64,000 bases of DNA, from positions 36,484,321-36,548,320 of the forward strand of contig NC_134851.1 of NCBI RefSeq assembly GCF_965363235.1, given 5' to 3'. The position numbers and the translations under genes were made by a program. Source of the DNA: Mytilus galloprovincialis (taxonomy: Eukaryota > Mollusca > Bivalvia > Mytilida > Mytilidae). The notes under the pieces are model-generated. The model was not told the origin of the DNA. It was given only the letters and a program-made list of their open reading frames with translations, and made no database searches. Numbering within the stretch: position 1 is the first letter of the stretch; each line of letters starts with the position of its first letter. Below are positions 6,272 through 43,680 of the stretch, piece by piece.

Positions 6272-8990
6272 ATTGTTACTAATTACCTATGGTTCTATTT
6301 AGAAAGGCTAACTGCAGTATAAAACAATGCAAATTCTTTGTAATTTTTTAATTTACATAATTCACTGGGACAAATACTGAAAATAATTAGACAATAGTAA
6401 AAAAAATAATTAAAAATCATCAGTTTTAAATATATTATAAACTTTGTAAAGCAAACAAATGTTTTATAAAATAAAAAAGCCTACAAAAACAGATTATCAC
6501 AAAATCACATCTGCAATTCATTAAAATTCAATTATATAAAATATATCTTGCCTTAAATAAGAGTGGCTGGATGGGGATTTTCACTCTAGTATATGCTATT
6601 TGTTTCTACATTTTTTATAGTACCTTATTCTCTATTCTTTTTTTGTTATAATATTTTTCTCTATACTAAAAACTCCTCCAAGACCCCTATAAATGCAGTT
6701 AGGATGGATGTATATGTGGATGAATTAATCATTTTCTAGACTAGTTTTTAGGCTAGAGGGGTTCACAACTTTAAAATAAGAGGGCAGATCAGCCCAATTT
6801 TTTTGTCAGAAATGGGACACATATATCATGTCTTAAAATAAGAATTAATGAATTAATTCAATAAATTAATGTACTTTTGCTGGGTTTAAGGAATTTGTGG
6901 ACACTGGTTGTAAATAACTTTTTGCAGGAGTCAAAATTAAATTTTATGCACTCAAAAGTTTATATTTTCCTTCAGAAACTTAATGGTCGAAATTATAAAG
7001 TGAAAATTCGATTAATTGGCTGGTGTTTAAAGCTGATTTGAAAACTATTGTGTTATTTCATGGAAGGAAGTTTTTATTGGTGGAGGAAGCCTAAGTACCC
7101 CAGGAAAACCACTGACATTTGGTAGGAAAATTGACAATCTTAATGAATTAAAATGGAGTCAAGTGCACCTGCCACTTTGAACTCAATTCCTTAGTTTGGA
7201 CAGGCTATTGATGCAGTTGTTTAACTACTTAGACCACTCTGCCACAGAGGTCCCTAAAGGGTAAGTGAAAATATTGACAGCAGAAAATAATTTAAAAATA
7301 TCAAATCACTGAGCTGATTATTGTGTGTGAAAAAAATGGTGCACGGTGCAATTTTACACCATGGTAACCAATTATTCTTATGGATTTAAGACAAAATGTA
7401 ATGTGTAGCCTAGTGATAACAATCATGTTTTCTAAAATTGTAATTTCACTAAATATTGTCTCTTTTTTATTACTTTACAAAAGGTAAAAGTGTAGAGAAT
7501 GGTGGTTTAATCTAATATCATTACACCTATTACATGTATTAAAAACATGACAAGTCTAAATGAGAACATTAAAAGCATACATTATTGATCAACTAAATGC
7601 AAAAGGTATATAAAAGCATGACATTAAACTCTAAAAAAAACAACATTTTTTTAATATAACAATAGTAAAAAAACTAACATTTTTTGCTATAATAATGATT
7701 GTCTATTTAATCATTGTATAAAAATGATTATAGTCGATTTACTTTTATCACAGAATTAATAAATGACCAACGCATGAATAAATATGACCTACAAAATAAT
7801 TGTATAGAACTGTAAACCACAGTGTTATTGCCTATTTATAAACTAGTCTACATGTATAGAACTGCCAACAACCAATAGGCTAAATTTTATATATCTGTTT
7901 CATCGAAATGAAAGTACAATTAAAAATATATACATGTAATACATTTACTTTATCTTAAAATGCATGCATTGACCTAATTCAAAAACAAATTGTAAAGCTA
8001 TGTTTACCACAGAAAATAAATTACATATAATATATAAACAGCACAATTTTTACAAAAAATGCATAAAAGTATGTAGTCTTTGAAATATCACAGCTGTAGC
8101 TTGAAGTTATAAGATGCATATGATGTCAATTCTTCATAAATTCAAAAAAAATGCTGAATTTATAGTACAAGTTTTCTGTACAACTAAAGATTCCAATCTA
8201 ATAGGTGGCCTTTGCTTAACATATACAGTATCGTCAGCTGGGCTTGTTAACTAATTTATAACTATCAAATCATAGATTGTTGCTGGCAAATTTGAAAATA
8301 CAACAATGTTGTCCCCCATTCAAATGCATTTGTGAAAAAGAAACAATCACAAAAAATATGTTTCACCGGAATTTAAATGCAGTTTTCATCAATGATATCA
8401 GCGCATGAAATTTTATCCAATTAAAATTTATGTAACAAATACATGTAAATGCATTAGAAAAAGGAACAAAACTGTAAAAAAAAAATGCAAAATTGCAAAA
8501 ATTGGTTCAAATGCTGTAAGTTTGTTTACCTGAATCATAAAAATAAAATTATTGTAAATAAATAATGACTGTATTAATTGATGAATAAGTATGGAGTTTG
8601 CAAATGGGGAATTTAAATGCATATTTGTGGTTAACTTTTAACACAAATATTTTCTCTAACTAGCATACAACAAAAACCAAATCTGTGACAAACAAGAGGA
8701 AACTATTAAATCTAAGTCAATTTGGACATTTGAAAAATTCCAATTGCATAAAATGAACAACAAAACAACTAAATCAAGGGAAATAACTCACTTAATTTCA
8801 TGTAATTTGCAATGGAATGTTTAAAAAAATAAAAAATTATCAATCATAATAAGTTAGCCACTCGACATACACACTTTATGGTTAATTCAATGGGTTATTT
8901 AAGAATCAGGATATGCCATCATGTTATGATGTCTATCAAAGATTTTTTTACTAAAGAAATATACACAATGTAGTCTGATGTCTTAGATGT
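6272..8990. other. AT-rich intergenic stretch without recognisable genes
   Basis: Apart from the continuation of the interrupted repeat (6272-6310), I see only AT-rich, low-complexity sequence with short chance frames. The end nearest DRC2 must contain that gene's 3' UTR, but no clear AATAAA is visible on the minus strand just below the stop codon. Confidence 0.5.
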
Positions 8991-9087
8991 CTATGATGGT
9001 AAAACATGTCTGACCACATGTGCTGCCTCCACAACTGTTTGTGCTACTGGTCTCTGTACACGAGGATCTGTTACTGGAACATTTAAT
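8991..9087 (-). CDS. DRC2: DRC2 coding exon 9 (terminal)
   Basis: Encodes residues 471-502 and the TAG stop at 8993-8991. It begins [14 protein letters not shown], which continues the family's C-terminal consensus; the last 20 residues are less conserved. Confidence 0.88.
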
Positions 9088-9589
9088 CTGAAAAAAAGGA
9101 AATTTAAAGTTTCTATACACTGACATTTAAATTCCTATAAATTTAAAAGTAAGGCAATTCCTATAAATTTAGAAGTAAGGTGATGTGGTATATTTGAAAA
9201 TCCACCAAATTTGAAATTTGAAATGACATGGATTTTCAGCTAAAACTAGTCTCTGAATAGCATTCAACAATGAGAAAAAAACACAGTATTCTATAGTCAG
9301 CTATAAAATAATCCTACATGACAAACTTTGAACCAATTCCAACAAGAAAAACTAAAGATGATTTTTTTGGTGATTTTGCATACATTAAATGAATGTTAAA
9401 AAATAATTGATGTCAAAAAATAAAACTTCCATTTCGACCCTCCTGCATACATTTTTAATGGATTAACCCAAATCTATAATGACAATTGTTACACACTTTA
9501 CTTTTTGTTGTCTGCTAAGATATCAACTAATTATGTTTTTAGCTCACCTGGCCTAAAAGGCCATGTGAGCTTTTCTCATCACTTGGCGT

Positions 9590-9620
<31 letters not shown>

Positions 9621-12600
9621 TAACAATTTTTCAAACATCTTCTCCTCTGAAACTACTGAATGGATTTGAATGAAACTTAAAATGATTGTTCCTTAGATTA
9701 TCCTGCACAAAGTGTGTGCTTCGATTTTTGATCCGTCAAAAAACATGGCCGCCGTTACTTAAAATAGAACATAGGGGTCAAATGCAGTTTTTGGCTTATA
9801 TCTCAAAAACGGAAGCATTTAGAGCAAATCTGACATGGGGTAAAAATGTTCATTAGGTCAAGATCTATCAGCCCAGAAATTTTCAGATGAATCAAACAAA
9901 CCATCGTTGGGTTGCTGCCACTTAATTGGTAATTTTAAGGAAATTTTGCAGTTTTTGGTCATTATCTTGAATATTATTATAGATGAAGATAAACTGTAAA
10001 CAGCAAAAATGATCAGCAAAGTAAGACTACAAATAGGTTAATATGACCAAAATTATAAATTGACCCCTTAAGGGGTAAATGTCCTTTAATGACAATTTTT
10101 CACAATTTGTTCATCATATTTGCTAACTTTAAAAAATCTTCTCCTCTGAAACTACTGAATGGATTTGGATGAAACTTAGCATGATAGTTCCTTAGATTAT
10201 CCTGCACAAAGTGTGTGCTTCGATTTTTGATCCGTCAAAAAACATGGCCGCCCTTACTTTAAATAGAACATAGGGGTCACATGCAGTTTTTGGCTTATAT
10301 CTCAAAAACGAAAGCATTTAGAGCAAATCTGACACGGGGTAAAAATGTTCATTAGGTCAAGATCTATCAGCCCTGAAATTTTCAGACGAATCAAACAAAC
10401 CATTGTTGGGTTGCTGCCACTTAATTGGTAATTTTAAGGAAATTTTGCAGTTTTTGGTCATTATCTTGAAATCATTATAGATAAAGATAAACTGTAAACA
10501 GCAAAAATGATCAGCAAAGTAAGATCTACAAATACATGTAGGTTAATATGACCAAAATTGTCAATTGACCCCTTAAGGGGTAAATGTCCTTTAATGACAA
10601 TTTTTCACAATTTGTTCATCATATTTGCTAACTTTAAAAATTCTTCTCCTCTGAAACTACTGAATGGATTTGGATGAAACTTAGCATGATAGTTCCTTAG
10701 ATTATCCTGCACAAAGTGTGTGCTTCGATTTTTGATCCGTCAAAAAACATGGCCGCCCTTACTTTAAATAGAACATAGGGGTCAAATGCAGTTTTTGGCT
10801 TATATCTCAAAAACGAAAGCATTTAGAGCAAATCTGACACGGGGTAAAAATGTTCATTAGGTCAAGATCTATCAGCCCTGAAATTTTCAGACGAATCAAA
10901 CAAACCATTGTTGGGTTGCTGCCACTTAATTGGTAATTGTAAGGAAATTTTGCAGTTTTTGGTCATTATCTTGAATATCATTATAGATAAAGATAAACTG
11001 TAAACAGCAAAAATGATCAGCAAAGTAAGATCTACAAATAAGTTAAATATGACCAAAATTGTCAATTGACCCCTTAAGGGGTTATTGTCCTTTAATGACA
11101 ATTTTTTCACAATTTGTTCATCATATTTGCTAACTTTAAAAAATCTTCTCCTCTAAAACTACTCAACCAAATTCAACCAAACTTCAACTGAATGATCAGT
11201 AGGGTGTATAAAATAAAGTTTGTGTTTTATTTTCTATTTTGTCTAAAAACATGGCCGTCATGGCTAAAAATAGAACACAGGGTAAAATGCAGTTTTTGGC
11301 TTATATCTAAAAAACTCCAGCATTTAGAGCAAATAAGACTAGAAGTTAAAATATTTATTAGGTCAAGGTCTACCTGTCCTGAAATTTTCAATTTGCAATT
11401 TGCAAAAAAAATAATTTGTTGTGCTACTTCCAAAAAATAGAAAATATTCTGACCAGAAAAAAAACCATGTCCCCCTACAAGTTAAATGGTCCATGCCTAA
11501 CTGTTATTAATGAAATCATTTAACTGTTTTGCTGTTATTGGAGCCCCTTGCCCCTTCTCAGCAGTGGACTCGAAAAATCAATATGGGAGGGGATGAGAAT
11601 TGAGGATTTTTTAGTGTGGCCATATTTTAACACACTAATACTATGGTACTGAGGTAATCTTCATAGTCAATGTTTCTTAGTTAAGGGGTTCAAAGTTTAA
11701 CAATGTCCAACATAATCTACCTACCTATTCTCTACCTAGCAGGGTAAAATTTTATTTTAGAAAAAGATGTATAGTAAGTACATGTATGCAAGTTTTTTCT
11801 CTTAATAAATGATTAGTTAAAAAAATTGTCTTGATCATTTTTGTCGAGCCTGCAACTTTCGTTGCAGTTAGCTTGATATAGGGATAGTGATCCGGCGGCA
11901 GAATTGAATAACTATATTTGGTACGTGCGTTCCTTGCAAGGTCCTCATGCCTGTCGGACAGTTTTCACTTGACCTCGACCTCATTTCATGGATCAGTGAA
12001 CAATGTTAAACTTTCGTGGTCAAGTCCATATCTCAGATACTATAAGCAATAAGTCTAGTAGATTTGGTGTATAGAAGAACTGTAAAGTGTACATGTCCAA
12101 CTGGCAAGTGTCATCTCACCTTGACCTCATTTTCATGGTTCAGTGGTTATAGTTAAGTTTTTGTGTTTTGGTCTGTTTTTCTTATACTATATGCAATAGG
12201 TCTACTAAAATTGGTGTATAGAATGATTGTAAGGTGTACATGTCTAGCTGACAGGTGTCATCTAACCTTGACCTCATTTTCATAATTCAGTGGTCAAAGT
12301 TAACTTTTTTAGTTTTGGTCTATTTTTTTAATACTTTATGCATTAGGTCAACTATATTTGGTGTATGAAAATATTTTATGATCTATATGTCGGTTACGCA
12401 GGTTTTATTTGAACTTGACCTCATTTTCACAGTCCATTGCTAAGTTTTAAGTGTTTGTGTTTTGGTCTCATTTTCTTTATTTATAAACAGTAAGTCATAT
12501 ATATTTGTAATATTGAAGAATTGTTAGCTGTACATGTTTGCCTGGCATGGTTCAATATGTTCAATAAGGCATTGTTTACCAGGTGAGCGATTCAGGCTCT

Positions 12601-36271: not shown

Positions 36272-36277
36272 TTTAAT
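36272..36277 (-). terminator. Candidate poly(A) signal ATTAAA
   Basis: ATTAAA occurs 25 bases after the stop of the six-cysteine exon. It is the commonest variant signal, but a hexamer is weak evidence in AT-rich DNA. Confidence 0.35.
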
Positions 36278-36302: not shown

Positions 36303-36427
36303 CTAGCACATATTCACAAGACAGTTCTGCACACATTTAACTGTAGAAATTCTGCAGGCATAGGCACATCTTGACATGCAGACAGTTGACCCCCTTTTAC
36401 CGAAGGTCTTCGAGATTGAAATGCCAC
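36303..36427 (-). CDS. Secreted-peptide exon 6: dibasic site and six-cysteine tail
   Basis: Enters with two bases that complete the Gly codon left by exon 5 and stays open to the TAG at 36305-36303 (41 codons with stop). GKR at residues 140-142 is followed by 29 residues with six cysteines. It lies 2.6 kb from exon 5, with a retrotransposon fragment between them, so this junction is the least certain of the gene. Confidence 0.65.
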
Positions 36428-39400
36428 CTACAACATAAGGTAATTGTTAGTTTAAGAAATACATAGCTCAATTCACTTCATTTTAAAAACAAGTGACGAT
36501 ACTTTGTCACCATCTTATAGTGTTTATATATCTCAACTTGTACGATTCGCTCGTGCATGTAACAACGTTTCAGATTCTAGCGAGAAAAATTTATGTATTA
36601 CTGAAAAATTATTACACCAGGGTTTTCGATATCACAAAATAGTCAAAACATTTACTAAATTTTATCATCGGTATAAGGAAATCATTCGTAAATATAACTC
36701 AACATGCAGACATCTTATACGTTCAGGTATTTCACATCCAATCTTTTATGGTAATATTCTTTACAAAGCACAAAAATGTCAGCATTCACCCCAAAAGCTA
36801 ACAAAACCTTTAAACAGACTTTTGTTAGAAGGGATATACTTACGATACTGTTGTCAGGTCATTAAAGATTGCATATGTTGGCTTTAATATTGATTCACTT
36901 ATAAGGTATTTGCATCGGAATTAAGCACATTTATTCTAAAACCAGTTGCTGGCATGTCACGGGTTATGTTCTTTTCATATATTTCATGATGGTATAATAC
37001 TGAACCCCTAACAGGAGGAATTGTGCCCGATATTCATATGATGACGACATAATCTATTAATCAGTTTATTTGAGGTCTGGAGCTGGCATGTCAGTTAACT
37101 GCTAGTAGTCTGTTGTTATTTATGTATTATTGTCATTTTGTTTGTTTTCTTTTGTCTCATATTCTGACATCAGACTCGGACTTCTCTTGAACTGAGTTTT
37201 ACTAGGCGTATCGTTGTGCGTTTTTTTTTTACATTGGCTAGAGGTATAGGGGGAAGGGTTGAGATATAAAAAAAAAAAACATTTCTAACCCCTCTGCAAT
37301 TTTGCAATGTCCCAAGTCAGGGGCCTCTAGTCTTTTCTTGTCTTGTATGATTTTTAATTTAAGTTTCTTGTGTATAATTCGGGGTTAAGTATGACGTCCA
37401 TTACCACTGAACTAATATACATATTTATTTAGTGGCTAAATGAAGGACGCCTCCAGATGCGGGAGTTTCTCGCTACATTAAATACCCATTGGTGGCCTTT
37501 GGCTGTTGTCTGCTCTATGGTCTGGTTGCTGTCACTTTGACACATTCCCCATTTCCATCCTCAACTTTATTCACTTCGATGTTTTTTCATTGTACGCATG
37601 TTTCTTGGTGTTAATTCCAAGACCAATTACTCTGGGTTGTTTTACGAAATTTTAAGTGTTTGTATTTTACTGTGGCAGTGTTAATATTATACAAGCTTTT
37701 CATTATATTTCTAATACGACTGTTTCATTATGATTTATATATTATACAACAATTTAGTGTGCTTATTATTGATCGTTTCAGTGTGTTAGTTTATACAAAA
37801 AGACCGGTTTTTGCATCATTATCATGTTTGTAAGAGGGTTTATGTATTGTTTTGATTTTCTTGATTTTAGGTTTTTCTATACTGGTTCGTATCACTCAAC
37901 CTTTTTTCTCAATGTTACACTGTCATCATTTTTATTATGGCACTACTACGGTGATTGGTATGTGTGTCCGTTATCTACAGATGATTTAATTATGCCCCTT
38001 TGTTTCTTACATAACTTGGATACAATAAAGTAAAATGTAAAACAAAGCTTGCCAAATCGAAAGCATAAATATCAGATTTACAAACAGAAAATTATTAACA
38101 GTCGTTTTCTGGTCGTAATCTACCGGTGATTTCGTTTTGCCCTTTGTCTGATATACAAGGAAGAAAAATGTAAAACAAAAACAATGCCAAATCACACGAG
38201 TAAAATATCAGATATACAAAATTAACATGCACTATCATAGGGAACATGTGTGCTAAGTTTCAAGTTGATGTGACTTCAACTTCATCAAAAACCACGTACC
38301 TTGACCAAAAACTTTAACCTGAACGGACGCACGGACGAACGGACAGACGGACGATCAGACGCACGAACGGAGCACATACCAGAAAAACATAATGCCCCTC
38401 TACTGTCGTAGGTAGGGCATAAAAAATAATTCATAAAAAAAAAACAATTCATGAAAATGCACGTTATACAATGCGGTGTTTATATTTCTATGGCATATTA
38501 AAATAACTTAGCGAAAATTCTTAAAGTCAGGAAACATCACTTATGAAATTAAGTTTAATTATGTGTTACAGGTGTTGATCCCATCTTCAACATTGTTAAC
38601 GACTATTCATTGAATGGAACAACATATTTAATTATTTTGATAATAACAACAGATGACACAATTCATAATTTAACATGACTCTTTGGGTCCTTGATAGATA
38701 TTGTACATACATTGTATCTTAATCAATTGAAAAATGAAGATTTTTATAATTTTTCATCGTACCTCTTATACTGTGAATTCATTCATATTGAATTTCGTGG
38801 GTATCAACTTTCGTGGATTGAGAAAACTATCATGCTCGTGGATATTCATTTTCGTAATTTTGCGAAAGTCTGTATACATGCGTATGGGAATTTGACATTC
38901 AGTCAACTTTCAATTTCGTGGTTCATCTATACCCACAAAAGGTACGAAAATTGGTATCTAACGAAAAATCATGAATCCCCAGTTTATTGAATTTCTATAT
39001 ATCTTACCTCCTGTTCCGCTGTTGGGTCCCCATCGATGATTAATATGACCACCGAAACGCCATCCCTTTCCTAGATTATATGTACCTTTGAGACCAGCAG
39101 CTTTAACACAAAAATCACGAAATAAATAGCAAATCTATGAATTAACTTATTTTGAGGAAGAATAATGGAAAAGAGACAACTCGTATCAATAGAGCATCCA
39201 CCGTAATAAGTGCGTTTTTTCCATTTTCTTTGAGTGTTATGTATATTTTTCTCATATATCGAAACAACAGAATAATATAGTTAACAATTTTTCATTTATA
39301 TAAAAATATATACTATTAATTTCTCTCGTACAAAAGTGGTTGATAAAGTTTGAATTGCTGAAACGTTTCTTTCTGTGGGATATTTAGGAAAAGATTCGTC

Positions 39401-42400
39401 TCTTTCATTTTGACACTGACATGGGTGTTGTCTGTCAACATTTCTCCATTTGTGTCTATCACGTGATATATCAGATCAAAACCATCTTGACAATTATTTT
39501 CTCGAATGAATATGTTTCGACATGTGTGTTCCTGTTAAAAAACAAATAACCTATCTCTTCCGATAATAATAACGATTTTTTTTTATCAGTGATGTATTTA
39601 TTATAATACTAAGCACTTATAATCAGATAAACCGTAACGATTATTGCATATTAATGAAATTGATTCCAAAAATCAAAAATGCATTTAATCATCAGATAAT
39701 ACATCTCATGATACAGTACAAGTTTGAAGGTGTAGGTCAAGCATTTTTACTATCAAAATTTCAAAGAAATCAAAATCAAGCTGCATTTTGTGAATGATGA
39801 AATCAGGATAGTCAGAAACCTAATTTTCAGTGGTTGTTGTTTGTTGACGTGATTCATATGTGTTTCTCGTTTCTCGTTTTTCATATTGGTTAAACAGTTG
39901 GTTTTTCTGTTTTAATGGTTTTACAATAGTCATTTTTGGACCGAGTGTTAATATCTTTTGTAATGTCGTAGTACAAACGACTAGTCTTTTCTAATTTTGC
40001 ATGTTAAGGAATTTGGGCCTCCTAAATTCAACTGTAATCTTTGACTATCTTACATCCGCCGCGGTTGGATCCCCATCCTTGATTGATATTACCATGTAGA
40101 CGCCAATTCTTTTTACCAACACTACCGTTAAGACCAACACCTTAAATAAATACTCAGAAATAAACAAATCTCTCACACATCTTTAGATATATTGATAAAT
40201 TGATTTTAACTACACTTTCAAAAAAAACTGTTCTATTTTGTGGTGGTCAGTTTTTATGGATGGAGGCAGCCGAAGCTTTAGTCATCTAATATTGGAGTTT
40301 ACCTAACATGCAGAATTTAAACTCATGAGATCATGAAGTGTTGAAAGGCAAGTGATATATTTGTAGACTTCTTAGAACTCTCGGCCCCCGAGACACCATC
40401 CACAAATATAAGACACAATATAATTATTCCTATAAAGTGGTTCATATTTTCCACATCTATTTGTAAAAGAGACCCGATAATAAAAACAATTATCAAATAT
40501 ATAAAACTGATTTACATTCCTTCATAAAAAACATTTGACGATATTTGCTTTGAAAGTCGATATTAATTTGAACGATAAGGCTTTCTATACGGCTATATAT
40601 ATACAACTCGTCTAAATATCAACCCAACAATGTTAGATCTGTAAATTTGCTTTCGCAAATTTTTTGTTCTTCCCTCGCCGGGATTCGAACCCATGTTACT
40701 GAGATATCGTGACACCTAATCGCCTGCACTGTAGCCGCCCCGCTAGACCACACGGCCACCTTGGCTTCACAAAAATAAAGCTGTCAGTGGTAGTGTGTTA
40801 CCTTTCCTCGTCAGTTTTAATCTAGCGTCGTACTACAGTACATGATATATAAGGCATTGAGATGTTATTGTTACAGATCAGCTCAATTATCTATAGTAAA
40901 GGATCCTACAAATTAATGCAAGATACAGTCAAAGAAAATAATTATATTTATAAGTACGTCTGAGTCAGTGACAACTCTACAACAGATTTATCCATCGGAT
41001 CACCAGCAATGATGGTGATACATGGTTGTGTACATTATGTATATACAACTCGTCTAGACATCAACCCAACAATGTTAGATCTGTAAATTTGCTTTCGCAA
41101 ATTTTGTTCTTCCCTCGCCGGGATTCGAACCCATGTTACTGAGATATCGTGACACCTAATCGCCTGCACTGTAGCCGTCCCACTAGACCACACGACCACC
41201 TGGGATTCACAAAAATAAAGCTTTCAGTGGTCGTGTGTTACCTTTCCTCGTCAGTTTTAATCTAGCGTCGTACCACAGTACATGATATATAAGACAAGGA
41301 GATGTTATTGTTACAGATCAGCTCAATTATCTATAGTAAAGGATCCTACAAATTAATACAGTCACAGAAAATAATTATATTTATAAGTACGTCTGAGTCA
41401 GTGACAACTATATATACGATATATACGTCAGTAGTTTATTTAAGAAATATCCATTTCTTTTTGAGAATACTTAGGGTGCATAAACGTGGACCACATCACA
41501 TTTTTAATAAAAATTGACGTGTGATTAACACTTACAATCTTGAAATAAAATAAATAAGCACTCACTAACATGTTTTTTTTTGCTACAATTATAAATTAAC
41601 GACTAAACTAAAAAAAAAACCAAGATGCTTTAGTGCATTGGTGTCGCGATGACATAAGAAATACATGTTTTCAATTTCATTATGTATAGCATACTCATTA
41701 TTCTACTCCTCTGTACTTGTACATACCGTTTATTAACCCTGGGCTTTTTAAGTTTCCGTGAATGTGTCCGCCGAGACTATTACCATTGTTAAATTTGTAA
41801 TTTGCTCCAAGATTTCCAGAAAGACCACCTGTGTACTTAAAAGTTGGCTTCACTGAAATACATCATATATTGGCATTCGGCTAGGTTTATATTTTATTTA
41901 TCAACAGGCAGTTAACGTAAATAGCTATTTGAATATATTTTCACTCGAAAAACAACATTACATATGCATGAAATAATAAGGATTTGTAAACAAGCGAAGA
42001 AGCTTTTAAAAATTTGCTTCCTATAATACCAATAACGATCTTACATGGGGTCTTACATGGTTATAATTACTTGTTAAATATGGCATTCTCTGCAGTAACT
42101 ATATAACATTTTTGAAATGTGATAAACTCAATGTAACATGATAGCCAAAATATGTGATAAAGAAAAACCATAGCATGCATTTATTTACAAAAGCGCAGAC
42201 AAAAACATTTATGTGGTGATTATTTTGTATCGCTTCCTTTAGACATGTTCGAACTATTGGCTTCTTTTTTAAATATGTTAAAATAATTGAGGGCAGATAC
42301 CTTATTGTAACATGGTTATTGAATATTGCAATATTAATTGCTCACTTTAAACACTGTTTGGTTGTGTTTTTTTTTGCTGTTTATTGTTTGATGACAATAA

Positions 42401-43645
42401 AATGGAATTGAATTTAGTTTAAATGGCATTATCCACGATTATTAATTTAGGAATGGCTGTAATAAATTTTTCTGTCTATGGAGTAATAACATAAAAAAAT
42501 GTGGTGTTATGTTATTTCGAATAGACCGGAAAAAAATTAAGTCATTTCTTATAATCTTATTCTTAGTCCCATTTTAAACCAGAGTAAATCATGAAAAACG
42601 TTGATGACGCCACGGTCACATGATGTCTATGATCTAATAAACAAAACGACGTCAGCCAATCAGAAGATGTGTTACATCCAAAATTAAATTATCGAGTAAT
42701 AAAATATTATGTTCCTTTCCAACAATTAATTACTTACGTGGACCTCTGAAGAAGTTCCCAAACTGTGACTGTACTTGTACACTAGCAAGTAAAACAATAC
42801 AAAGCAACGGAATGGTGGACATTTCGACTTCCTATAAATACTACTGTAGCTCCATAAATAAAAAGAGAAATAATAACGCCAGTAATATAGATAACTTAGA
42901 ACTCAAGGTCAACATATATGATTTGAGAATTTTTATTTAAACAAAACAAAGTCATGATAGTATAACAGACATTTATAAATGTCGACAAGAAGCTTAAGAA
43001 AGCATGCATACACCGTATAATTTAACAAATTAGATATAAAAATCAGTTTATTACTCAATGACTAACGCCCAACCCTTAGATTCTTGAGTAGTCAAGACTG
43101 TTAAAATGTTATAATTTACAACTCATTTTAGTTACCCGGATTATTGTTTTGTTCTTTAAAAACGCGTTTCGTCAAAAGTCTCATCAGTCATGCTGGAATA
43201 ACAAATCTTAATAAAGCAAAATAAAAAGTACGAAGTGGAAGATCATTGAGGACCTCAAATTCCAATAGAAAATTGTAATGACTTATTTTCAACAAAATAT
43301 GGTCTTATAATTGGGTTTCTCCTGCAATGCAAATAAAAATGTGTCTCATCTTCATTTGTATTAATGAACTACCAATACGACTTTCTTCCCAACGTATTTA
43401 GTTTTCTTCAGTTTTAGGTTTAGTGGTAAAGTGTCTTTAAAAAATACTTAAAGATATGTTATTAGATTTCCATGGTATATATGTAAATATATATAATGAA
43501 TACTTTCAATAGGTTAAAAGGATAAAATAAATTAATGTTGTATAACGCAAATAAAAAACATATCTAAATCCTTTTGAAACATAGTTTCTTTTATTTGAAT
43601 TTCATACATACCGACTGACGATTCTGGTGTATCTGAACTGTATGT
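36303..43645 (-). CDS. Secreted glycine-rich / six-cysteine peptide precursor, antimicrobial-like (unrecognised family)
   Basis: Coding exons in transcript order are 42822-42738, 41852-41727, 40140-40054, 39100-39008 and 36427-36303; 516 bases, 171 aa. A non-coding first exon is placed at about 43645-43612. Residues 1-19 are a signal peptide (LLCIVLLASVQVQS). Residues 29-130 are three glycine-rich units of about 30 residues, each with GL-x-G early and a GHI-N / HGNI-N segment later; the last two share W-R...G-x-I-N...WG-x-N. Residues 131-171 hold FGKR (139-142) and six cysteines at 147, 151, 155, 162, 166 and 171 (CX3CX3CX6CX3CX4C). All internal introns are phase 1. Glycine-rich secreted peptides (attacin-like) and cysteine-stabilised peptides are both classical antimicrobial types; their combination in one precursor is not one I know. 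Function is inferred. The chain of five exons with GT-AG borders and unbroken frame is the main evidence. Confidence 0.75.
36495..37580 (+). mobile_element. Retrotransposon 3' part: reverse-transcriptase C-terminus plus 3' UTR
   Basis: The frame ending at 36887 contains PSYSVYISQLVRFARACNN, LLHQGFRYHKIVKTFTKFYH and SGISHPIFYGNILYKAQK, a block I recognise at the C-terminus of reverse transcriptases that are abundant in bivalve genomes. It is followed by a ~690-base non-coding tail (GGTTATGTTCTTTTCATATA, CATTGGCTAGAGGTATAGGG, GTTGTCTGCTCTATGGTC) ending near 37580; part of this tail recurs at 54345-54660. The copy is 5'-truncated and inserted in the last intron of the secreted-peptide gene, on the opposite strand. 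Confidence 0.75.
38235..38420 (+). repeat. Single-unit copy of the 169-bp array family
   Basis: Carries one unit end (CTAAGTTTCAAGTTGAT), then a GGACGCACGGACGAACGG run and the family tail CATAATGCCCCTCTACT, GTAGGTAGGGCATA. Confidence 0.7.
38770..38983. mobile_element. MITE with ACTGTGAATTCAT / ATGAATCCCCAGT ends
   Basis: The left end ACTGTGAATTCATTCATATT and right end ACGAAAAATCATGAATCCCC pair as an imperfect inverted repeat, with TTTCGTGGGTATCAA and TACCCACAAAAGGTACGAAA inside. A partial relative lies at about 21280-21360. The open frame across it is not a gene. Confidence 0.6.
39008..39100 (-). CDS. Secreted-peptide exon 5: glycine-rich unit 3
   Basis: Encodes residues 100-130, with AGLKGTYNLGKGWRFGGHIN and RWGPNSGTGG; aligns well with exon 4 and has phase 1 borders. 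Confidence 0.8.
39316..39531 (-). CDS. Orphan exon-like open frame in the secreted-peptide gene's last intron
   Basis: After a strong acceptor (TTTTTTAACAG, 39532-39534) the frame stays open for 71 codons to a TAA at 39318-39316. The inferred peptide is protein-like (CRNIFIRENNCQDGFDLIYH, VIDTNGEMLTDNTHVSVKMK) and ends LLYERN. It starts in phase 0, so it cannot follow the phase-1 exons of the surrounding gene in frame. It may be the last exon of another gene, a relic, or chance; I do not recognise it. Confidence 0.3.
   Translation of the reverse strand, partial: EHTCRNIFIRENNCQDGFDLIYHVIDTNGEMLTDNTHVSVKMKETNLFLNIPQKETFQQFKLYQPLLYERN
39830..39965 (+). repeat. Retrotransposon 3'-tail fragment
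   Basis: Shares TGTGTTTCTCGTTTCTCGTT and GGTTTTACAATAGT with the longer tail at 47085-47410. Confidence 0.5.
40054..40140 (-). CDS. Secreted-peptide exon 4: glycine-rich unit 2
   Basis: Encodes residues 71-99, with VGLNGSVGKKNWRLHGNINQ and GWGSNRGG; phase 1 at both borders. Confidence 0.8.
40600..40980 (-). mobile_element. tRNA-derived SINE, copy 1 of a tandem duplicate
   Basis: In complement a tRNA-like head reads GGCCGTGTGGTCTAGCGGGG (A-box side) and GGGTTCGAATCCCGGCG (B box), followed by a body with ACAGATCTAACATTGTTGGG. The adjacent sequence (GTAAAGGATCCTACAAATT, TAAGTACGTCTGAGTCAGTG) is duplicated with it. The head is close to a real tRNA but lies in a repeat, so it is not called a tRNA gene. 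Confidence 0.75.
41036..41410 (-). mobile_element. tRNA-derived SINE, copy 2 of a tandem duplicate
   Basis: Matches 40600-40980 almost base for base over about 370 bases (the differences include AGCCGTCCCACTAG for AGCCGCCCCGCTAG and a small deletion near 41356). The repeat unit is about 435 bases, so the two arose by tandem duplication after SINE insertion. Confidence 0.8.
41727..41852 (-). CDS. Secreted-peptide exon 3: glycine-rich unit 1
   Basis: Encodes residues 29-70, with YTGGLSGNLGANYKF and GGHIHGNLKSPG. Phase 1 at both borders (TTTCAG acceptor, GTATGT donor), so it could be gained or lost without breaking the frame. Confidence 0.8.
42440..42690. mobile_element. Foldback element, reversed copy of the 21408-21710 family
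   Basis: A short hairpin (TGTAATAAATTTTTCTGTCT against AGACCGGAAAAAAATTAAGT) is followed by the shared shoulder with GTTGATGACGCCACGGTCAC and GACGTCAGCCAATCAGAAGA. Confidence 0.65.
42738..42831 (-). CDS. Secreted-peptide exon 2: signal peptide
   Basis: Begins after a TTTATAG acceptor with nine untranslated bases, then ATG at 42822. Encodes residues 1-28: a hydrophobic leader with a likely cut after Ser19, so the mature chain would start with Gln20. Ends with one base of a split Leu codon. Confidence 0.8.
43090..43205. repeat. Diverged 'ACGCGCGTCTGGCGTA'-family fragment
   Basis: TTATAATTTACAACTC and AACGCGTTTCGTCAAAAGTC with CTCATCAGTCATGC follow the family's order in complement, but are strongly diverged. 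Confidence 0.35.
43612..43645 (-). other. Putative non-coding first exon of the secreted-peptide gene
   Basis: A good donor (CAGTCG/GTATGT) lies at 43611, and a TATA-like run sits about 30 bases upstream of 43645. The start point is an estimate from that spacing, not observed. Confidence 0.45.
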
Positions 43646-43670
43646 CTTCTGTCTAGAATTTACACAATCA

Positions 43671-43680
43671 TATATATATA
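43671..43680 (-). promoter_or_regulatory. TATA-like box of the secreted-peptide gene
   Basis: TATATATATA precedes the putative first exon. CACGTG (E-box) lies just upstream at 43690-43695. No convincing NF-kB consensus was seen in the few hundred bases further upstream. Confidence 0.4.

Follow-up and report, generated by a model that had tools for sequence, protein, structure and literature searches.

A glycine-rich, six-cysteine secreted precursor gene in Mytilus galloprovincialis and its distant sister gene suggest an undescribed family

Introduction

Does a single mussel gene encode a secreted precursor in which glycine-rich repeats are joined to a six-cysteine tail and, if so, does this precursor belong to any family already described? 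A sequence-only reading of the locus had proposed that the precursor exists and that its family cannot be placed. The window, i.e. the whole stretch of DNA that was analysed, is 64,000 nucleotides long and corresponds to C14:36484321-36548320 in a genome of 1.385 Gb and 331 contigs. According to the accessible part of a 2025 paper, mussels and other bivalves are without known glycine-rich peptides (PMC12294457). A precursor of two modules whose processing site is conserved would close this gap, and one gene would supply two testable peptides. Moreover, a helical-hairpin cysteine scaffold would be placed in an animal defence setting, and phase-1 exons offer a simple picture of how a precursor grows.

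The gene at the window locus

On the minus strand, between positions 42822 and 36303, splicing and translation of five coding exons give an uninterrupted frame of 171 amino acids with no internal stop, and all four coding junctions are GT-AG in phase 1 (Table 1). The single unbroken frame claimed earlier is thus present. The product begins with a signal peptide (residues 1-19, cut VQS/Q, assigned by inspection according to the -3,-1 rule), continues with three Gly-rich units and ends in a CX3CX3CX6CX3CX4C tail. The number of Gly-rich units, one in each of exons 3, 4 and 5, and the cysteine spacing of 3-3-6-3-4 are both as first reported. The window gene looks real and the original observation is confirmed.

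All five donors, that of the non-coding exon included, fall within the top 0.5-4% of the GT sites of the strand when scored with a simple consensus. The acceptors, scored in this way too, are mixed: that of exon 6 ranks in the top 3%, that of exon 5 in the top 17%, and those of exons 3 and 4 in the top 32% and 35%, respectively. A TATA-like promoter had also been claimed. The stretch is there and its position is promoter-like, but it is weak evidence for a promoter because the surrounding DNA is AT-rich.

Exons 4 and 5 appear to have arisen by duplication, as none of 2000 shuffles matches their alignment score. Exon 3 has a weak likeness to exon 5 (score reached in 66 of 2000 shuffles) and no significant likeness to exon 4 (1259 of 2000). 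Homology of exon 6 to the Gly units was considered and rejected as not significant, the score being reached by 142, 969 and 1373 of 2000 shuffles for exons 4, 3 and 5, respectively.

Table 1. Positions of features of the window gene (numbered within the window) and of the coding exons of its paralog (numbered on C3)
Feature	Position	Strand	Remarks
TATA-like stretch	43671..43680	-	~30 nt ahead of presumed start; read from sequence, weak
Likely non-coding exon 1	43612..43659 (5' end uncertain, about 43645)	-	donor GTATGT, top 2.9% of GT sites
Exon 2, coding part	42738..42822	-	signal peptide and beginning of mature part
Exon 3	41727..41852	-	Gly-rich unit 1, 126 nt, phase 1-1
Exon 4	40054..40140	-	Gly-rich unit 2, 87 nt, phase 1-1
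Exon 5	39008..39100	-	Gly-rich unit 3, 93 nt, phase 1-1, resembles exon 4
Exon 6	36303..36427	-	end of Gly-rich module, processing site, six-Cys tail, stop TAG
G-K-R, predicted amidation donor and dibasic proprotein-convertase site	36393..36401	-	from sequence; G-R-R in C3 paralog
CX3CX3CX6CX3CX4C block	36306..36380	-	Cys spacing
ATTAAA, possible polyadenylation signal	36272..36277	-	downstream of stop, read from sequence
C3 signal exon	19279694-19279766		
C3 first Gly exon	19281074-19281199		126 nt, length equal to window exon 3
C3 second Gly exon	19282718-19282825		
C3 tail exon	19284629-19284783		

Several other features were noticed in and near the gene. Intron 4 holds a 71-aa open frame on the minus strand (39531-39316; EHTCRNIFIREN...) with an acceptor-like site in the top 0.6%. 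It was rejected as an alternative last exon because its fusion to exon 4, read by hand, leads to an immediate stop; a genome search with it at E up to 10 gave no relative, and it is possibly a lost or alternative exon. In intron 3, a short minus-strand frame with a signal-peptide-like start (40445-40323; MNHFIGIIILCLIFVDGVSG) may be the relic of another secreted gene; the sole nearby donor-like site with a positive score falls after its stop. The same intron carries a tandem duplicate (40594-41429, spacing ~440 bp) with a tRNA-like promoter element (GGTTCGAATCC) inside. This is perhaps a tRNA-derived SINE, and ARAGORN gives no tRNA in it. Upstream on the same strand, at about 58420-54100, an EGF-like exon rich in Cys was recognised by eye, together with a transmembrane exon (LAVAIAAGSGGAVILILVFVLIICCCC) and a tail that contains Tyr; they look like parts of a mucin-type membrane protein.

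A distant sister gene on C3

When the 171-aa protein was searched against the genome, it matched its own five exons and one other place, C3:19281085-19281204 (E=0.0013), which is 43% identical to window exon 3. The C3 paralog is complete: its four coding exons are joined by three GT-AG phase-1 junctions, with no internal stop. The cysteine spacing of its tail is 3-3-5-3-4, i.e. one loop has 5 residues where the window tail has 6. Both genes share a K-x-F-G-[KR]-R boundary between the modules, KKFGRRRR in C3 and KTFGKR in the window gene. In the reciprocal search, the spliced C3 protein hit window exon 3 (E=1.8e-5) besides the four exons of its own gene.

BLASTP of the two spliced products gives E=1e-15 with 50 of 173 columns identical, a value that is partly circular because the C3 exons were picked with the window gene in view. 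More independent support comes from the exon 3 match (38.5 bits), whose score none of 200 shuffled versions of the C3 region attains, from the tail match there (22.3 bits, reached by one of 200) and from the Cys array described below. Taken alone, the matches of exons 4-5 (97 of 200) and of the signal exon (44 of 200) in the C3 region are not significant. Specifically, 17 of 40 aligned amino acids are identical in the exon 3 pair, and none of 20000 shuffles reaches the score whether C and G are fixed or free. The tails are identical at 13 of 39 positions (33%). Their score is reached by none of 20000 free shuffles, by 8 of 20000 if C and G are kept in place, and by 11 of 5000 when each such shuffle is realigned. 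A loosened array, C-X3-C-X3-C-X4..8-C-X3-C-X3..5-C, occurs once in the six frames of the window, in none of 200 versions of the window shuffled in 3-base blocks, and once in the C3 region; in both regions it is located at the tail. Over the 98 codons compared, third positions differ at 0.63 and first and second positions at 0.39, as expected if both genes were under selection at the protein level; dS over these codons is saturated or not computable.

On sequence comparison, the C3 paralog is the strongest support for the window gene model. It bears on the possibility that the Gly-rich exons come from one gene and the Cys-rich exon from another, or that the window holds a dead gene copy, to which the long last intron (2580 nt) and the weak acceptors of exons 3-5 lend some weight. 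We consider this very improbable: exon order, phases, boundary motif and cysteine spacing are all repeated in the paralog, which also backs the doubtful junction 39008/36427, and the frames are intact in both genes. The window gene and its distant C3 sister of like layout suggest an undescribed family, whose products are probably defence peptides.

Two genes of this family are detectable in the genome. More diverged members may be missed, because the genome search works without profiles and scores only the best first-look candidates. Searches with the tail alone returned self-matches and no paralog at E 0.001 and E 10, and a search with the C3 counterpart of exon 3 gave a self-match plus the window gene only. 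This small number counts against our main reading (below) when set against the 17 genome places above cut-off for the Pfam myticin model. The latter lie on C10 and C1 and none on C14, and the model matches in 0 of 14 control genomes, as would suit a mussel. The 17 matches are grouped, and several have internal stops. To our knowledge, myticins are restricted to Mytilus. A 345-bp tandem array (~10 copies, 98% matches; positions 6369-9801 of the C3 stretch L008), which starts ~2.8 kb downstream of the paralog, shows weak likeness to it and was set down as a satellite. Among the viral contigs 12 stretches fit a pattern, none of them coding for a relative.

The glycine-rich module and the processing site

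The Gly module of the window protein (residues 21-142) has a net charge of +16 and 26% Gly, and contains no D or E. It is important to note that the C3 Gly module is only +5 and has eight acidic residues, which counts against our main reading. By eye, the mature N-termini of both proteins start with Gln. F-G-K-R and F-G-R-R are classical sites of cleavage with amidation. Since F-G-[KR]-R is kept at the module boundary in both paralogs, the two modules are probably separated; the predicted products are a Gly-rich peptide in amidated form and the six-Cys peptide on its own.

Such a site would also suit a peptide-hormone or neuropeptide precursor with an amidated or six-Cys product acting on a receptor. 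This seems improbable to us, as the amidated product would be ~120 aa long and repetitive, and a tail identity of 33% is low for a hormone. The protein might instead be non-immune and form part of mucus, byssus, gill or shell matrix, as a basic, Gly-rich material whose end is stabilised by disulfides; Gly-rich repeats are indeed common among secreted structural proteins. We find this doubtful, because just two or three short units, a dibasic site preceded by Gly and a small six-Cys tail would be atypical for most such materials, and the tail is conserved in a diverged paralog.

A defence-related precursor has parallels in mussels. In many myticalins a Gly ahead of the dibasic site is taken to signal amidation through the successive action of a convertase, a carboxypeptidase and PAM, and the accessible text, which names a convertase site for big defensins and CRP-I as well, presents this route as proposed and unproven there too (PMC12294457). 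The precursors of defensins, mytilins, myticins and myticalins have an anionic C-terminal region, as far as the available part of PMC5577615 describes them. The C-terminal piece of the present precursor is basic and not anionic, which counts against an antimicrobial precursor.

The six-cysteine tail

The net charge of the tail is +3 in the window protein and +7 in the C3 paralog. A structure prediction by AlphaFold had been suggested by the sequence-only reading; run on the tail exon alone and from one sequence, AlphaFold2 places helices at 15-24 and 30-40 with a mean pLDDT of 74 and a pTM of 0.46. Because two helices are predicted, the tail would be closer to the plant six-cysteine alpha-hairpinins, which have two helices (PMC11591084), than to defensins, mytilins or knottins. 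C2X3C3X6C4X3C5 of the tail fits the published 4C core CX3CX4-20CX3C. The strict 6C motif CX3CX3CX4-20CX3CX3C is absent from the tails of both paralogs, where the last loop alone departs, with 4 residues instead of 3 (PMC11591084). In the predicted model the tail matches a known kind of scaffold, i.e. two helices together with the 4C core of alpha-hairpinins. The sequence-only interpretation is partly supported. Its claim of one two-module secreted precursor from an unplaceable family is borne out, as the layout recurs in the paralog and no match was found to Pfam, to PDB sequences or to the cysteine arrays of mytilins and CRP-I, with the refinement that the predicted tail fits a known kind of scaffold. 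The role of immune effector, also proposed there, is inferred.

Proposed processing and function

Our main reading, to which we give a probability of about one half, is that the product of the window gene is a prepropeptide belonging to a so far undescribed mussel family of secreted effectors with at least two members, and that it yields two antimicrobial peptides. In the secretory pathway the signal peptide would be removed before Gln, which could become pyroglutamate. A proprotein convertase would cleave after Lys-Arg at the module boundary, and a carboxypeptidase and PAM would then leave an amidated Gly-rich peptide of ~120 aa, strongly basic and without acidic residues. The other product would be a free basic peptide of 29 aa, a helical hairpin with three disulfides, probably nested as 1-6, 2-5 and 3-4. 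In haemolymph or mucus, each of these products would attach to the surfaces or membranes of microbes, so that one precursor would give two antimicrobial peptides. The effectors are probably antimicrobial, as judged from charge, composition and the parallels with myticalins, CRP-I and hyastatin; microbial binding or killing is the least certain step. If all this is true, the precursor might represent a new animal family, combining the first amidated Gly-rich antimicrobial peptide of bivalves with a plant-type six-cysteine, three-disulfide alpha-hairpin peptide, having arisen independently in mussels and diversified as phase-1 Gly exons were duplicated. We put this wider proposal forward tentatively.

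Comparison with known families

The 171-aa product matches no Pfam model at E up to 10, Myticin-prepro (PF10690) included; no Pfam model passes its cut-off, and among PDB sequences no relative passed. Exon 6 as DUF5496 (E 0.045) and the paralog tail as NMD_SH3 (E 0.036) were rejected, both falling under the curated cut-off. An attacin-like character, raised earlier as a comparison, was not borne out, as the full products have no Pfam attacin match at E up to 10; an Attacin_C search of the mussel genome found none, which is weak evidence because no control genome matched either. Mytilins were rejected on their canonical eight-Cys array CX3CX3CX4CX11CXCXCX2C, as against six cysteines here, myticins on PF10690, and CRP-I on the knottin array C(X3-6)C(X1-7)CC(X3-4)C(X3-5)C, whose CC pair the tail lacks. 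For mytilins and CRP-I, these results agree with the earlier claim that the cysteine spacing differs from that of known mussel families. A literature search, with subscription papers outside its reach, did not reveal such a family. Six literal peptide strings did not occur in paper texts, which has little weight since sequences are seldom printed there. Transcripts of both genes may already be deposited unnamed.

Among mussel families, CRP-I resembles the present gene in its prepropeptide, the dibasic site (KR/RR), a Cys-rich mature part in the last exon and a non-coding exon 1, but it has the knottin array C-C-CC-C-C and many clustered genes, and the accessible text describes no Gly-rich module (PMC10138031). 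Myticalins share a non-coding exon 1, an intron right before the ATG and a phase-1 intron (PMC5577615, available part), as well as a basic mature peptide and, in many, Gly before the dibasic site (PMC12294457, available part). Unlike the present precursor, they are described in the accessible texts as Cys-free, compositionally biased (Pro/Arg and others) and provided with an anionic extension after the dibasic site (PMC5577615, PMC12294457). Canonical mytilins start with CX3CX3C as the tail does, but according to the available part of PMC7168163 they have eight cysteines in a CS-alpha-beta fold, and their mature peptide directly follows the signal peptide and is itself followed by an anionic extension.

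Outside mussels, plant alpha-hairpinins differ from the present precursor in origin and are without a Gly-rich module; the likeness lies in the array and the predicted helices alone. Among animals, scorpion kappa-KTx peptides exemplify a hairpin of two helices linked by disulfides. They are venom peptides with two disulfides, and are likened to the tail by description only.

The closest analogue in layout is crab hyastatin. As far as the accessible descriptions go, hyastatin, penaeidins and type II crustins are secreted and have a Gly-rich (or Pro-rich) N-terminal and a Cys-rich C-terminal domain, with six cysteines in the latter in hyastatin and penaeidins, as in the tail. The mussel protein shares with hyastatin the Gly-rich N-terminal and six-Cys C-terminal parts. 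The N-terminal region of hyastatin mediates binding to chitin, and a form lacking the Cys domain is described in the accessible text once as severely reduced in activity (against Gram-positives) and once as not bactericidal (PMC2866484). By this analogy, the mussel product could be an uncleaved two-domain effector, in which the six-Cys domain kills and the Gly-rich domain binds a polymer such as chitin. We regard this as unlikely, since G-[KR]-R is retained at the boundary in both paralogs and no Pro/Arg-rich stretch like that of hyastatin is seen in the window protein. The accessible accounts of the hyastatin group name no cut between modules, unlike our prediction. Hyastatin is a crustacean protein with a Pro/Arg region and a penaeidin-like domain, likened to ours by description and not by sequence. 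Thus, a secreted precursor with a Gly-rich and a Cys-rich module is known in crustaceans; here it is found in a bivalve, with a scaffold and a processing site of its own.
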